DNA from: a virus
Strand: one strand, 5' to 3'
Length of the DNA: 37,298 bases
Virus record (IMG/VR): IMGVR_UViG_3300044691_000359
Span: 1-37,298 of that record
Shown here piece after piece: positions 9,819-31,418 of this stretch (positions within the stretch are counted from its first letter, which is position 1; every line of letters starts with the position of its first letter). The position numbers and the translations under genes were made by a program. The notes under the pieces are model-generated. The model ran no database searches. It was given only the letters and a program-made list of their open reading frames with translations, and was not told where the DNA came from.

Positions 9819-10062
9819 CCAGCAATAACAGTCCTATCCACTACCTCTGACTCCAAGTGAGTCCCACACACGTTTTCCCAGGTCACAGGCGAATGTGGAC
9901 ATGATGTACGTCCACGAGCCGTCGCGGATCCAGCAGTCGAAGGATATTGCGAAGTTCATCACTACCAGCTCAAACAGGTAGTTGAAGATGATCAAGCCTT
10001 AACGTGGGCATGGGACGTACGTGGGATCAGAGAGTCTGAATCCCAGGGAATCCCATGCCCAC
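9713..10062. other. candidate attP region with arm-type repeats
   Basis: No gene lies at 9819-10054. Copies of CGTGGGAY occur at 9728, 9738, 9750 and 10020 on the plus strand, an inverted copy at 9713-9720, and GTCCCAC at 9861; related TGGGCA/TGGGAC words lie at 10004-10016. The repeats flank a clear middle stretch (9868-10002) holding two inverted repeats: GTGGAC-N9-GTCCAC (9895-9915) and ACTACC-N10-GGTAGT (9961-9982). This fits P and P' arms around a core. The three copies inside the integrase gene also encode a GSRGTDRGT repeat, so part of the signal may be coding. No tRNA piece was seen. Confidence 0.45.
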
Positions 10063-13069: not shown

Positions 13070-13258
13070 TTACTGCTGGGTCTTGACCGCGGCGGTGAAT
13101 GCGGCCCACTGAGAGCTGCTAACGGTCAACTTGCCACCCTCGCGGTTCTTGGTGTCTCGCACGCCGACAACGTTGCCAGTGGCGACCTCGACGCAGTTGT
13201 CGGTTGATCCGCTGTAGCTTGACTTTTTCCAGGGTCCCGCCCGCTCGGGTACGGTCAT
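13070..13258 (-). CDS. DUF397 protein
   Basis: 62 residues with the DUF397 signature: WKKSSYSGSTDNCVEVA, GVRDTKNREGGKL and QWAAFTAAV. These small actinobacterial proteins are nearly always next to an XRE-DUF5753 regulator, as here, where they overlap by four bases (13255-13258). In streptomycetes such pairs affect development and antibiotic production. The exact biochemistry of DUF397 is unclear; it may act as a partner of the regulator. Confidence 0.92.
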   Translation of the reverse strand: MTVPERAGPWKKSSYSGSTDNCVEVATGNVVGVRDTKNREGGKLTVSSSQWAAFTAAVKTQQ

Positions 13259-14103
13259 CTTGTCGTCTCCTTGCCCTTGATGACATCGGCGATGAGCTCA
13301 GCTGTGTCGGTCGGGCTCATCGCCACTTCTTCCACCCTGTTCAGTGCACGTTCATACGGCCCAACTTCGTTGGGCTCGTGCAGAAACAGGCCGGAAATCT
13401 TGTTCTCGAGGTGCACGATCGAACCGCGATCGGCGAACTGCGCGATCGAGAACGGTCCCTCGAGGCCGGGATGCCACGTCGTGCGCGTCGGGATCACGCG
13501 GAGCTCGACGTTCGAGCGCTCCCCCATCTCCAGCAGGAACGCCAACTGCTCGAGCATGACCTCTTCGCCGCCGATGAGTTCGAGAAGCACCGGCTCCCAC
13601 AAGAACGCGCGCAGCTCAACCGGTTCCTTGCGGGTGATCGATTCCCGCCGGCCGACACGAACGGCGACCTTGAGGTCGATCTCCTCGCGGGGCACCTCGG
13701 CGGCGATCATCACGGCTCGCGCGTAGGGACCCGCCTGCAGCAGCCCGGGGATGAGCAGCGGCGAAACGGCGACGATGGTCTGCGCAGTGCGCTCGATCTC
13801 GAGAAGCGCGGACAGTTGGCCTTGCTGCTCCGGCATGCCGACCGAGAGCCAGTGCGCCGCGTCGGTGTCGCGGGACATCTCGACGAGCGCCTGACGAACG
13901 TCAACGGGTGCGTCGGCGACGGTGAGGAACGCAGCGACGTCGGCTTCGGATGGTGTCCTGTCGCCGGTTTCCCAGCGGGAGACGGTGGGGTGGGCGTAGC
14001 CAAGACGTAGCGCCATCGCACGTACTGAAAGGCCGTCGACAGCTTCACGGGCCTTGCGCAGCTCGGCGCCGAGGGCACGGCTCTTCGGGGTGGTACCAGC
14101 CAT
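13255..14103 (-). CDS. XRE-family regulator with DUF5753 domain
   Basis: 282 residues from the ATG at 14103. Residues about 10-65 form a helix-turn-helix (LGAELRKAREAVDGLSVRAM, then HPTVSRWETGDRTPS). The rest (about 90-275) is the DUF5753 domain with its usual LLIPGLLQAGPYARAV and EQLAFLLEMGERSNVELRVI segments. This family is abundant on actinobacterial chromosomes and uncommon as phage cargo. A TATTCT box lies seven bases before the ATG and there is no ribosome site, so the mRNA is probably leaderless. It faces a rightward operon whose promoter carries a triple GGTACC site and may control it. Confidence 0.92.
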   Translation of the reverse strand: MAGTTPKSRALGAELRKAREAVDGLSVRAMALRLGYAHPTVSRWETGDRTPSEADVAAFLTVADAPVDVRQALVEMSRDTDAAHWLSVGMPEQQGQLSALLEIERTAQTIVAVSPLLIPGLLQAGPYARAVMIAAEVPREEIDLKVAVRVGRRESITRKEPVELRAFLWEPVLLELIGGEEVMLEQLAFLLEMGERSNVELRVIPTRTTWHPGLEGPFSIAQFADRGSIVHLENKISGLFLHEPNEVGPYERALNRVEEVAMSPTDTAELIADVIKGKETTR

Positions 14104-14110
14104 GGACCAC

Positions 14111-14138
14111 AGAATACGCACACGTTGGGCCCCGTCAG
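14111..14138 (-). promoter_or_regulatory. candidate leaderless promoter of the XRE-DUF5753 gene
   Basis: On the minus strand CTGACG (14138-14133), a 16-base spacer and TATTCT (14116-14111). The -10 box ends seven bases before the ATG at 14103, so transcription would begin at or next to the start codon. The absence of a ribosome site agrees with this. Confidence 0.5.
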
Positions 14139-14157
14139 GGGTCACCCGATTGGTGCA

Positions 14158-14219
14158 TTGAGTTCTGGGTGGTGCCATGCCGATACTTGGTTGGTACCGC
14201 CGGTACCACTGGTACCAAC
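14158..14219 (+). promoter_or_regulatory. promoter with triple GGTACC operator-like site
   Basis: TTGAGT (14158-14163), an 18-base spacer and GATACT (14182-14187) form a plausible promoter for the rightward genes. At the expected start point lies a symmetric array: GTTGGTACC (14190-14198), a central GGTACC (14202-14207) and GGTACCAAC (14211-14219). All three share one centre of symmetry at 14204.5. This looks like a repressor site, most simply for the neighbouring XRE-DUF5753 protein. Confidence 0.5.
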
Positions 14220-14255: not shown

Positions 14256-14495
14256 ATGTCGGACTACGAGTGGCGCAGCACCTGGCCGGTTCAGGGCAAG
14301 GCGCTCGACGGCGGCACCGTCTCCGTGGTCATGGGCCTGCTCGAGAGACCTGACGGCACCTGGCTGGGGATCGCCATAGACGGCGCCGACCCGATCCTTC
14401 TCCCGATCAAGGAAGCCATCGCGCACAGCATGGCCGTCCGGGACGCGATCGCCGAGAGGTACCGCATCTCCAACCACGAGGGCGGTGGCCTGTGA
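14256..14495 (+). CDS. small cargo protein, unknown
   Basis: 79 residues from the ATG at 14256, with GGAAGG about eight bases upstream. It looks like a compact beta-rich start (GTVSVVMGLLERPDGTWLGI) followed by a helix. It is the first gene behind the promoter with the triple GGTACC site, and it overlaps the next gene by four bases (GTGA). No family recognised. Confidence 0.7.
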   Translation: MSDYEWRSTWPVQGKALDGGTVSVVMGLLERPDGTWLGIAIDGADPILLPIKEAIAHSMAVRDAIAERYRISNHEGGGL

Positions 14496-14614
14496 GCTGG
14501 TTCAGCAACTCCGGGTCCGGCCCCGAGGTCCCGTACGAGCCACCGAAGGACGACGACAAGCAGGCGAAGGCCGAACCGGACGCGGCGTCCGCCACCGGAG
14601 AGGACGACCAGTGA
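14492..14614 (+). CDS. 40-residue acidic peptide
   Basis: Starts at a GTG overlapping the previous stop (14492-14495) and ends in a GTGA overlap with the next gene (14611-14614). It is polar and low-complexity (YEPPKDDDKQAKAEPDAASA). The tight coupling on both sides argues that it is translated. Function unknown. Confidence 0.55.
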   Translation: MSWFSNSGSGPEVPYEPPKDDDKQAKAEPDAASATGEDDQ

Positions 14615-14886
14615 CCGTCACCGAGCACCGCCAAACCGCCTTCGACACCGCCGCCTGCTACATGCCGGTCACGATGGGCGGTGTCAGGCACCTCACCTAC
14701 ATGCCGCCGATCGCTCCGTACGCAGGCACTCGGGTGGAGTTGGCGTGCGAGCTCGTCCGCACCGTAGGCCGAGAGACCTGGCACGACGCGCTGTTCGACT
14801 GCCACCTCTGCACCGTGCTGTACGACCCCACTCGAGCTGCCCGGTCGGCGCGCCCGTCTCCCGATGGCGCCGCGCTGACTGGGTGA
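14611..14886 (+). CDS. small cargo protein with possible zinc site, unknown
   Basis: 91 residues from a GTG coupled to the previous gene. It has a Cys near the start (TAACYMPV) and later an LACELVR plus a FDCHLCTVLYD segment. The CHLC pair with nearby His suggests a metal site. It is the last of the three coupled small genes and is followed within ten bases by the first hairpin of the array at 14895. Confidence 0.65.
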   Translation: MTVTEHRQTAFDTAACYMPVTMGGVRHLTYMPPIAPYAGTRVELACELVRTVGRETWHDALFDCHLCTVLYDPTRAARSARPSPDGAALTG

Positions 14887-14894
14887 CCAACCCT

Positions 14895-15187
14895 CAACCG
14901 GTCCGGGCTGCTCTCATCCCCCGACACGGCCCGGACCGGTTGGGCCTTGGCTCCGTGCCCGAACGCTGTATCGGTGGGCACGGGGAGGCCTCCGCGCTGG
15001 CCTTTAAGCGGCGCGGAGGAGCGGGGCCCGGTGGCATTCGCACGCACCCGGGCCCCGTCTCCACCCCAGATCGGTGCGCCGACCCCCCGCGGCGCACTTC
15101 GATACCGCGGCTGGGCAGTTCCGCCTGCAGGTCACCAGCCGCGGGAACGTCAGGGCCCGGTAGGCACCTCCCGCCTACCGGGCCCTG
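14895..15187 (+). ncRNA. array of seven hairpins, candidate structured RNA
   Basis: No credible gene lies at 14887-15267. Seven perfect stems follow one another: 14895-14942 (14 bp), 14953-14983 (8 bp), 14989-15019 (9 bp), 15022-15057 (10 bp), 15074-15097 (7 bp), 15105-15144 (10 bp) and 15151-15187 (15 bp, loop ACCTCCC). Most gaps are 2-16 bases. The stems differ in sequence, so this is not a repeat array. Three plus-strand loops are C-rich (ATCCCCC, ACCCCCC, CCTCCC) and could pair with ribosome-binding sites. It may be a regulatory RNA or stacked terminators. Confidence 0.4.
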
Positions 15188-15267
15188 TCACATTCCAGTC
15201 ACACCGGTAACAGACCACAAGGTCAACGCGACGACCACATCAAACCTACCTAGCGCCGGAGCCAGCC

Positions 15268-15759
15268 ACGACCGAGATCCAGGACCAGCCCGCGGGGACC
15301 CAGCCGGCACCACGTCGTCCGCGGCGCGCGTGGATGATCGCCGCGGTAGGCGCCGCGATCGTGGTGGTCGGTGGCACGGTGGGCGCCGTGGTGGCGGCAC
15401 CTGCCTCGCCGACAACGTTCACACTCAACGGGGCGGTGTCGATGCTGAACAGTGGGGATCTGATCCAGGCGAACGGGGACGGCGGCTGCTACGGGATCGG
15501 CAGCTATTCGGACCTCGCTACGGGTGCCACCGTCACTGTGCGGGACGAGAGCGGGCTAACCGTCGCGATGGGCACGCTCGGGGCAAGCGACGCCGCTGTC
15601 ACGCCGCAGACAGGGTTCGTGTGGGGGTGCGACATCGACTTCGCCGTCGTCGGCGTGCCTGACGGGCACCCTCAGTATCAGGTGTCCGTCGCGAACCGCG
15701 CCCCGCAGGTGGTCTCTCTGAGCACCGCGCGCACCTACGGCGCGGTGCTGAACATCTGA
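15268..15759 (+). CDS. exported or membrane-anchored cargo protein, unknown
   Basis: About 163 residues if translation begins at 15268, or 141 from the first ATG at 15334. The longer form is preferred: a coding-like cytoplasmic tail (TTEIQDQPAGTQPAPRRPRR) precedes the membrane helix (MIAAVGAAIVVVGGTVGAVV), GGAG lies six bases before codon 15268, and the ATG at 15334 has no ribosome site. Codon 15268 is ACG, so either ACG is used as a start or an ATG has mutated. The outside part has two cysteines (GGCYGIGSY and VWGCDIDF) and is beta-rich. It ends head-on against the late operon terminator. Function unknown; surface location is likely. Confidence 0.6.
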   Translation, partial: TTEIQDQPAGTQPAPRRPRRAWMIAAVGAAIVVVGGTVGAVVAAPASPTTFTLNGAVSMLNSGDLIQANGDGGCYGIGSYSDLATGATVTVRDESGLTVAMGTLGASDAAVTPQTGFVWGCDIDFAVVGVPDGHPQYQVSVANRAPQVVSLSTARTYGAVLNI

Positions 15760-16101: not shown

Positions 16102-16332
16102 TCAGAGGCGGCTCTCCGGCTGGAACACCGCGCGGTTCAGCGCCATGAAGCCCTGCTGGAAGTGGGTGCGCGCGATCGACACCCAGCGGCGGTCGACCTC
16201 GGATCCGTCGAGCTGGAGAAGCCAATCACCCAACTCGTTCTCCAGGTCCTTGGAGTGGTTGACCGTGTTGATCTTCTCGGGGCTCTGGGGAACGTAGCCG
16301 GTGATGGCTCCCGGTTCCTGCGGGTCGCTCAT
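16102..16332 (-). CDS. helical-hairpin protein, possibly Acb2/Tad1-like
   Basis: 76 residues. After a Pro-rich start it forms two helices: NTVNHSKDLENELGDWLLQL and RRWVSIARTHFQQGFMALNR. The second, with an Arg-Trp, a conserved ARTHFQQGFMAL run and a final AVFQP, resembles the small helical-hairpin proteins grouped with Acb2 and Tad1, which bind cyclic nucleotides and block CBASS or Thoeris defence. Such proteins are often found among phage lysis and late genes. It is coupled to both neighbours (four-base overlap upstream, TGATG downstream). The match is from memory of the family pattern and needs a profile search; a plain structural role is the alternative. Confidence 0.5.
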   Translation of the reverse strand: MSDPQEPGAITGYVPQSPEKINTVNHSKDLENELGDWLLQLDGSEVDRRWVSIARTHFQQGFMALNRAVFQPESRL

Positions 16333-20046: not shown

Positions 20047-21194
20047 CAGAAGGCCCCTCTCGCGTCGAGGGCGTGGGTCACGGTGTTGGGGTCGCTGCCG
20101 TTCGCCAAGCCGATGATGCGCACCGAGTACAGGCCGTCCGGGATCCACGGGTGGCCGATCACGTTGTAGGTCGCGAAATAGCCCGGGTCATACGACCCCA
20201 GCGGCGAGACGCCGTCGATGCGGATCAAGGGTTTCCAGGTCTCGGTGGACTTTCCGTAGAGGCCGATGTCCGCCGTGGCGTAGGCGTTGAGGACGTCCTG
20301 GCTGGATTCCGACGAGTGGTTGCTGTCGACGTAGTCCAGCAGCGGCCACCCGTTAGTGATCAACCCCGGGTTGTTGGCGTACCCGCTGAGTTGTGTCTGC
20401 GAGTTGCCCGCGCCCTTGACCCACGCGGCCGTAGCCACAGTGGACCCATCGGCGTCGAGTGGTAGACCCTGGATCGTGCTCTTGTAGTCGAACGCAACCG
20501 GCGCCCCAAGCTGGGTGATGTAGGGCTTGCCGATGGCCATGCGGTGCCGGATGAAACGGCCACTGCCCGGCACGTTCAGCAGGTACGGGGCGAAGTCGAC
20601 GTCCGGTCCGCCGCCGACCTGGGTGAGTTCCTGCAGCCGTTGCCCGCACGGGGCGAGGTCGAACCCGTTGTACGTGCGGGTATTGGTGCCGGTTCCGGAG
20701 TCGGCCGGGATGTCCACGGGCAGCGCGGATCCCGGTCGCCCGGTCATGGTGACGGCGTTGCGCACGATCGCCGCGGCGATGTCCCACAGTTGCCCCGTGA
20801 TCGTCACGTCGGCCGACGGGTCGGTGATCAGTGTGGTGGCGGGGTCGTAGGCCGGGTGGTGCAGGTTGCGGCGGTTCAGCAACGACCAGAAGCCGCCGAA
20901 GCTGACCTGCACGGTGCCGCCGGCGTCGTCGACCGGGTAGGCCGTGATCGGGCCGGCGTTGCACACGTAGTCGCCCCACAGGACCGCGATGGAGAACCGC
21001 CACGGGATCATCAGCGAGCGCAGCACACCGGGCGCCCAGCCTTGGGACTGCAGCGGCATCGTGATCTGGTTGGCGGTGCTCGCGTTGATCTGGCGGGCCC
21101 AGGTCGGGGGCGCGTTGATCGGGAGCTCGGCCGAACCGACGACACGGCCCGAGGTGGACGAGTAGACCAGCGCGGTGTAACCGCCGATGCTCAC
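20046..21194 (-). CDS. minor tail protein, ReqiPepy6 gp37-like
   Basis: 382 residues. The sequence resembles the ReqiPepy6 Gp37-like family of actinophage tail proteins: YTALVYSSTSGRVVGSAELP at the start, repeated beta strands in the middle (TVQVSFGGFWSLLNRRNLHH) and a C-terminal part ending in GLYSVRIIGLANGSDPN. These correspond to the baseplate hub or Tal-like proteins of the tail tip. It follows the other tail-tip genes and is coupled to the next gene. Confidence 0.75.
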   Translation of the reverse strand: MSIGGYTALVYSSTSGRVVGSAELPINAPPTWARQINASTANQITMPLQSQGWAPGVLRSLMIPWRFSIAVLWGDYVCNAGPITAYPVDDAGGTVQVSFGGFWSLLNRRNLHHPAYDPATTLITDPSADVTITGQLWDIAAAIVRNAVTMTGRPGSALPVDIPADSGTGTNTRTYNGFDLAPCGQRLQELTQVGGGPDVDFAPYLLNVPGSGRFIRHRMAIGKPYITQLGAPVAFDYKSTIQGLPLDADGSTVATAAWVKGAGNSQTQLSGYANNPGLITNGWPLLDYVDSNHSSESSQDVLNAYATADIGLYGKSTETWKPLIRIDGVSPLGSYDPGYFATYNVIGHPWIPDGLYSVRIIGLANGSDPNTVTHALDARGAF

Positions 21195-30791: not shown

Positions 30792-31361
30792 CTAGCGGCG
30801 GATTTGCGCCGCGAGCTTCGCCGGATCGGTTTCTTCCGGCTCTTCGTTCGGCTTCGAGCCGGCACGAAGTTTCGGGATCGGCCGGCGATCAGGCGGGCCA
30901 CTGGCCGCGGCCGTTCCGCCGAACGTTTCGAGCAGATCAGCGGCGTCGGCGTCGAGTTCTTCTTTCGTGGTGCCAACGAGCCGCTTCGCCTGCGCTTTGG
31001 TGAGACCATGCTCGAGGCCGATGTCAAGCTTGAGCAGTTCGAGCTCGGCCTTCTCGGCGCGCGTCGCGAGCGCCGTGTGAGCCTCTTCCCGCTTCTGCTG
31101 CTCGGACTTGGACGCGTCGGCCTTCTCCTGCTCGGCCTTGCGGAAACCAGCCAGCTCGGTCTCCAGAGCGGTCGCCTTCGTCTTCGCGGCGTTGCGCTCT
31201 TCGCGGATCGCGGCCAGCGCGCGCTGCCCCGGCTCGCCGAGCTTGTCCTCGCCGTCGATCTTCTCCTGGGCGGCAGCGGCCGCGGCTGATGCGGCGGCTG
31301 CTGTGGCGGCGTCCGCGGCGGTCGCTTCGGCGGCCAGTTCTGCGTCAGTCTTTTCGGGCAT
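30792..31361 (-). CDS. scaffolding protein
   Basis: 189 residues from the ATG at 31361 with GAGGGA about eight bases upstream. It is highly charged and helical: an Ala-rich start (AEATAADAATAAAASAAAAA), a coiled coil (REERNAAKTKATALETELAG and on) and a basic C-terminus (PAKLAAQIRR) that would bind coat protein. Composition and place before the coat gene are typical. Confidence 0.85.
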   Translation of the reverse strand: MPEKTDAELAAEATAADAATAAAASAAAAAAQEKIDGEDKLGEPGQRALAAIREERNAAKTKATALETELAGFRKAEQEKADASKSEQQKREEAHTALATRAEKAELELLKLDIGLEHGLTKAQAKRLVGTTKEELDADAADLLETFGGTAAASGPPDRRPIPKLRAGSKPNEEPEETDPAKLAAQIRR

Positions 31362-31418
31362 GACAAATGTCCCTCTCGAAGGGTGGTTGGCCGCGGGCAT
31401 CGCGCGGGCGGCCGGGAA

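Follow-up and report, generated by a model that had tools for sequence, protein, structure and literature searches.

Genomic context of the hairpin row

The DNA analysed here (the window, 37,298 nt) is a temperate phage contig from IMG/VR with identifiable genes for terminase, portal, head, tail, integrase and helicase. The same phage, a prophage of a soil bacterium, was found at 99.99% identity inside the Amycolatopsis MAG RYN_118, where it has its first base at window position 9899 and its last at 9960, the 62-base overlap marking the attachment site. Comparison with the MAG also indicated that the window lacks a 1,008-base segment of the circular genome, at the junction between its last base (37298) and its first. 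With the attachment site at 9899-9960 on one side and the lysis genes on the other, the row of hairpins described below is therefore located in a cargo region.

Three small, overlapping plus-strand genes precede the row. The first is an open reading frame of 79 aa (14256-14495) that overlaps the next gene at its stop and has no Pfam match. The second (14492-14614) encodes a 40-aa protein beginning MSWFSNSGSG, for which a search with the 40 aa gave no convincing relative elsewhere apart from the counterpart described below. The third (14611-14886, 91 aa) occupies the position that a conserved Cys-rich (C..C) protein of 90-105 aa has in other elements and is itself very divergent. PADLOC identified no defence family among the small genes. 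A gene pair comprising an XRE-DUF5753 regulator and an overlapping DUF397 gene, a common actinobacterial combination, lies on the minus strand at 13070-14178, divergent from the small cargo genes. The next gene downstream of the row (15334-15759, plus strand) encodes a small membrane or secreted-type protein with no family match. Its frame extends upstream over 15208-15334 on the plus strand as protein-like sequence that lacks ATG, GTG and TTG, and a GGAG directly precedes an ACG at 15268.

Structure and significance of the row

An optimal-chain scan of 14895-15187 recovered all seven perfect stems of a preliminary description of this DNA, with lengths of 8-15 bp and gaps of 2-16 bases. These are H1 (14895-14942, perfect stem of 14 bp, loop ATCCCCC(GACA)), H2 (14953-14983, perfect stem of 8 bp), H3 (14989-15019, stem of 9 bp), H4 (15022-15057, perfect stem of 10 bp), H5 (15074-15097, stem of 8 bp, loop ACCCCCCG), H6 (15105-15144, stem of 10 bp, loop stretch GCCTGCAGGTCACC) and H7 (15151-15187, perfect stem of 15 bp, loop ACCTCCC), all given on the plus strand. 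The three C-rich plus-strand loops noted earlier (ATCCCCC, ACCCCCC and CCTCCC) were also as described. The count of seven was short by one, as a further hairpin, H0, lies just ahead of these coordinates (14839-14884, plus strand, loop CTCCCGA) and overlaps the end of annotated gene 3. In a second copy of the row the Cys-rich gene ends before H0, and in the window there is no corresponding stop within 14838-14886 and the frame crosses the hairpin.

Measured by perfect stems the gaps from H1 to H7 are 10, 5, 2, 16, 7 and 6 nt, the 16-nt gap being smaller once the weaker outer pairs of H5 are included. The row thus has the spacing of less than 15 nt by which hairpin-cluster terminators are defined, and H1 begins 8 nt past the stop codon at 14884-14886, inside the 80 nt from the stop that the same definition allows. 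A search for a U-tract terminator at the row was negative.

The plus strand is predicted to fold at -199.1 kcal/mol compared with a mean of -149.4 (sd 6.3) for dinucleotide-shuffled sequence (z = -7.9), an energy reached by none of 100 shuffles, and the minus strand gave z = -7.8, so that the comparison proposed in the preliminary description placed both strands outside the shuffled range. The row had the highest chain score (74 stem-bp) of 28,783 windows of 330 nt, drawn from about 0.86 Mb of Amycolatopsis DNA comprising 40 stretches of two genomes and two element regions, for which the 99.9th percentile was 41. Its second copy ranked next with 60 stem-bp. The best-scoring background site (L081:15740-15930) is an intergenic stretch of the chromosome in that same genome, with several strong hairpins in tandem. 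The structure of the row is far beyond chance and, as proposed earlier, repeat expansion does not account for the stems, there being no direct-repeat family inside the row; it consequently does not fit CRISPR, TIGR or type III antitoxin RNA arrays. Dispersed palindromes of the REP/BIME type were rejected, since the genome has just one further near-full-length copy and the hairpin families vary in sequence. The row had no match in Rfam at gathering scores, and a loose threshold gave only weak matches, including a Streptomyces sRNA at an E value above 1.

Related rows in Amycolatopsis elements

The second row in the RYN_118 genome is 86% identical over the whole unit (365 nt). It is located in an island beside a tRNA-Val gene, where a GntR regulator and a fragment of an integrase are also found. 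Upstream of it is a small gene whose product begins MSFFSNSGSG, the divergent counterpart of window gene 2, and the gene for a 90-aa Cys-rich protein comes after this one. The genes around it have strongly diverged from those of the window while the row itself has been kept. The genome also has a third, shorter row. Relatives of the 90-aa protein were found in Amycolatopsis, and across 390 genomes of the family a single weak match lay beyond the genus. Many of the relatives have other hairpin rows or single hairpins downstream. The protein has no recognisable fold or family, and its AlphaFold model (pLDDT 61) was too low in confidence for a structure search.

Other Amycolatopsis prophages have different rows 3' of the same type of small Cys-rich gene. 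In two, L130 and L124, the row adjoins the lysis module and, as in the window, separates the small genes from a gene that converges with the lysin. The lysins of the window and L130 are 44% identical, and the downstream secreted-type proteins of these two have no detectable relationship. Three hairpins, alpha, beta and gamma, are kept in order in five elements (L130, L124, L129, L177 and L139). The shortest related row, on contig C161, consists of H0-, H5- and H6-like hairpins only, and the rows therefore differ by whole hairpins. As rows of this kind recur elsewhere, that of the window is not a single oddity. These relatives were found through the protein gene and then by hairpin strength within one genus, a procedure that favours structured examples. 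DNA searches of phage and plasmid collections gave no relatives of the row. Exact-motif scans of viral contigs returned chance coding matches only, and blastn gave weak matches in further genomes of the genus, for the most part isolated pieces, of which one was a lone 3' hairpin.

Paired changes in the stems

The preliminary description had called for a search for compensating stem changes in relatives, and these were present in several hairpin families, the window and its closest copy giving a mixed result. H0 belongs to a genus-wide hairpin family ('B'; 42.9 bits with model CM R1), in which 14 sequences had 93.8% standard pairs, a percentage biased upward because the sequences were partly selected as strong hairpins, and six of the 14 pairs were changed on both sides. 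Its covariation score was reached by none of 500 shuffles. The putative homology of the family rests on common stem ends, loops and placement. H6 has five of ten pairs doubly changed across three rows while a 14-base loop stretch is unchanged, and H5 is similar to a C-rich-loop hairpin in six other rows. The beta hairpin has one doubly changed pair and gamma has two. Between the window row and the 86% copy three pairs were compensated, six had one-sided changes that still pair and fourteen were broken, the broken pairs being mostly at helix ends or inner loops with three in main stems. H2 is identical in the two copies, a single base difference disrupts a pair of H3, and H7 has one compensated and one broken pair.

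With a covariance model trained on the H0 set, additional copies outside that set were located near eight further protein-gene relatives, in every case on the gene strand (p = 0.004). The sampled background gave nothing at E <= 0.1 but the known copy on C161. Within Amycolatopsis 26 of 80 genomes had a match at E <= 0.01, and outside the genus there were six matches in about 310 genomes of the family, all at E >= 0.0019 and near chance. At significant scores H0-type hairpins thus appear limited to Amycolatopsis in the genomes searched.

Stop codon placement and loop composition

Of 21 H0-type hairpins, 17 start 1-5 nt past a stop codon. All three stop codons are represented, and recoding at one stop codon is therefore unlikely. 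Hairpins of this type also occur singly 3' of many small genes, and some (L119, L131 and L177) are followed by another gene start after only about 25-60 nt. In two genomes (L198 and L199:1501-1545) an H0-type hairpin is located 3' of an apparently chromosomal amidohydrolase-like gene that converges with another gene.

The loops of the rows are C-rich on the gene strand (C164:G54), with 34 loops richer in C and six in G, compared with C85:G71 and 20 loops richer in C against 12 in G for a set of 41 hairpins directly 3' of 585 chromosomal genes. The difference was significant by base when related rows were taken as independent (Fisher p = 4e-5) and marginal when counted per loop (p = 0.05), the rows being mutually related. 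Unpaired C-rich loops on the RNA strand, a feature by which C-rich-loop regulatory RNAs are recognised, are thus present in the row. The suggestion that the loops pair to ribosome sites was not borne out in a crude test, in which complements of the loop 7-mers occurred in 11.2% of 330 start regions compared with 9.9% (sd 2.0) for shuffled loops and were therefore not in excess.

Possible functions of the row

Clusters of hairpins spaced by less than 15 nt and located close to stop codons have been described as intrinsic terminators that are most frequent in GC-rich genomes and do not need a U-tract (Gupta and Pal 2021, PMC8355165). The sense placement of the row at the end of an operon, its GC-rich stems without U-tracts and the occurrence of such hairpins behind a few apparently ordinary genes of the chromosome, convergent pairs among them (L198, L199), favour a function in 3'-end formation. 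Together with the published survey they have led us to take the row, with moderate confidence, as an oversized transcription terminator and insulator of the hairpin-cluster type that forms the structured 3' end of the operon of small cargo genes. A polymerase exiting the small genes would encounter eight GC-rich hairpins without U-tracts, the first at the stop codon, and cargo transcription would halt or fade before it reached the lysis module or the next gene. The hairpins would also block 3' exonucleases. The row would be built of hairpin modules used across many Amycolatopsis mobile elements, with whole hairpins gained and lost. Further points in favour of termination are the start of most H0-type hairpins within 1-5 nt of a stop, the gene-strand placement of all eight copies outside the training set, the tandem terminator-like hairpins in intergenic DNA of the chromosome (L081) and the two other prophages in which the row has a like position beside the lysis module.

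The row resembles hairpin-cluster terminators (PMC8355165) in its close hairpins from near the stop codon, the dispensable U-tract and the GC-rich genome, but has eight long hairpins where theirs are usually two or three, hairpin families common to several elements and C-rich sense loops. The chromosomal 3' hairpins of actinobacteria, terminators without a U-tract, likewise have long GC-rich stems directly after genes, but are mostly single, with loops that have no C bias and no common loop sequence. Neither the C-rich loops on the RNA strand nor the conservation of the H0, H5 and H6 loops is expected from plain termination, and eight hairpins far exceed what it needs. Full termination would also be awkward where H0-type hairpins sit shortly before a gene start (L119, L131, L177). 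As the hairpins are fixed at stop codons, the terminating ribosome could control their folding. Cargo genes of a prophage need to be expressed in the lysogen without waking the adjacent lytic genes, and recurrent, modular, genus-specific 3' hairpins at stops would be a concrete, testable solution in a GC-rich host, where terminators are poorly understood.

It is possible, but not probable, that the row is or becomes a functional RNA that binds mRNAs, a small RNA or a protein, conceivably the Cys-rich protein encoded just upstream, through its C-rich and other conserved loops. The regulatory RNA proposed in the preliminary description is upheld in so far as there are related rows, paired changes and C-rich sense loops, but the position suits 3'-end structures at least equally and pairing with ribosome sites found no support. 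The loop composition (164:54 compared with 85:71), the conservation of the H0 and H6 loops while their stems change and the association of the rows with one protein family point to such an RNA, as does the precedent of S. aureus RNAIII, where C-rich loops bind ribosome sites (PMC2837412). With RNAIII and other C-rich-loop regulatory RNAs the row shares a long structure of several hairpins with unpaired C-rich loops (PMC2837412). It differs from them in being located at an operon 3' end without excess complementarity to start regions. The lack of a recognisable fold or family for the Cys-rich protein and of an Rfam match at gathering scores also count against a functional RNA. If the loops matter, they would represent an RNA family not found here in Rfam.

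A further reading, which we regard as rather unlikely, is that Amycolatopsis prophages and islands share a modular system of 3'-end RNA hairpins, stacked into rows and located 1-5 nt past stops, whose conserved C-rich loops would control cargo expression by binding of protein or RNA or by coupling to the terminating ribosome. It is unlikely that the row is a scar, with every hairpin marking the former 3' end of a small gene and repeated gene loss in a fast-changing island having stacked them into a row that has no role as a whole. Such a history would agree with rows that differ by whole hairpins, C161 having only H0-, H5- and H6-like ones, and with the single H0-type hairpins 3' of many small genes, but not readily with the retention of 86% identity over 365 nt in another element despite strong divergence of the neighbouring genes, nor with the alpha-beta-gamma order maintained in five elements. 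A replication or recombination site with hairpins acting in single-stranded DNA is very improbable since, although the stems would form in DNA too and the second copy is near a tRNA and an integrase fragment, the hairpins are on one strand relative to the genes and abut stop codons, the integrase and attachment site of the window are 5 kb distant, and there is no replication-initiator gene beside the row, the DnaB-like helicase gene being at 1597-2952.

Other features of the window

ARAGORN predicted tRNA genes at 20613-20706 (Val) and 31319-31415 (Pro), which overlap phage genes on the opposite strand and are probably false. Between the lysin and holin-like genes, a minus-strand gene (16102-16332) encodes a 76-aa protein with an Acb2/Tad1 hairpin domain (PF24729, E 1e-17), a family whose members include anti-CBASS and anti-Thoeris proteins that sequester cyclic nucleotides.
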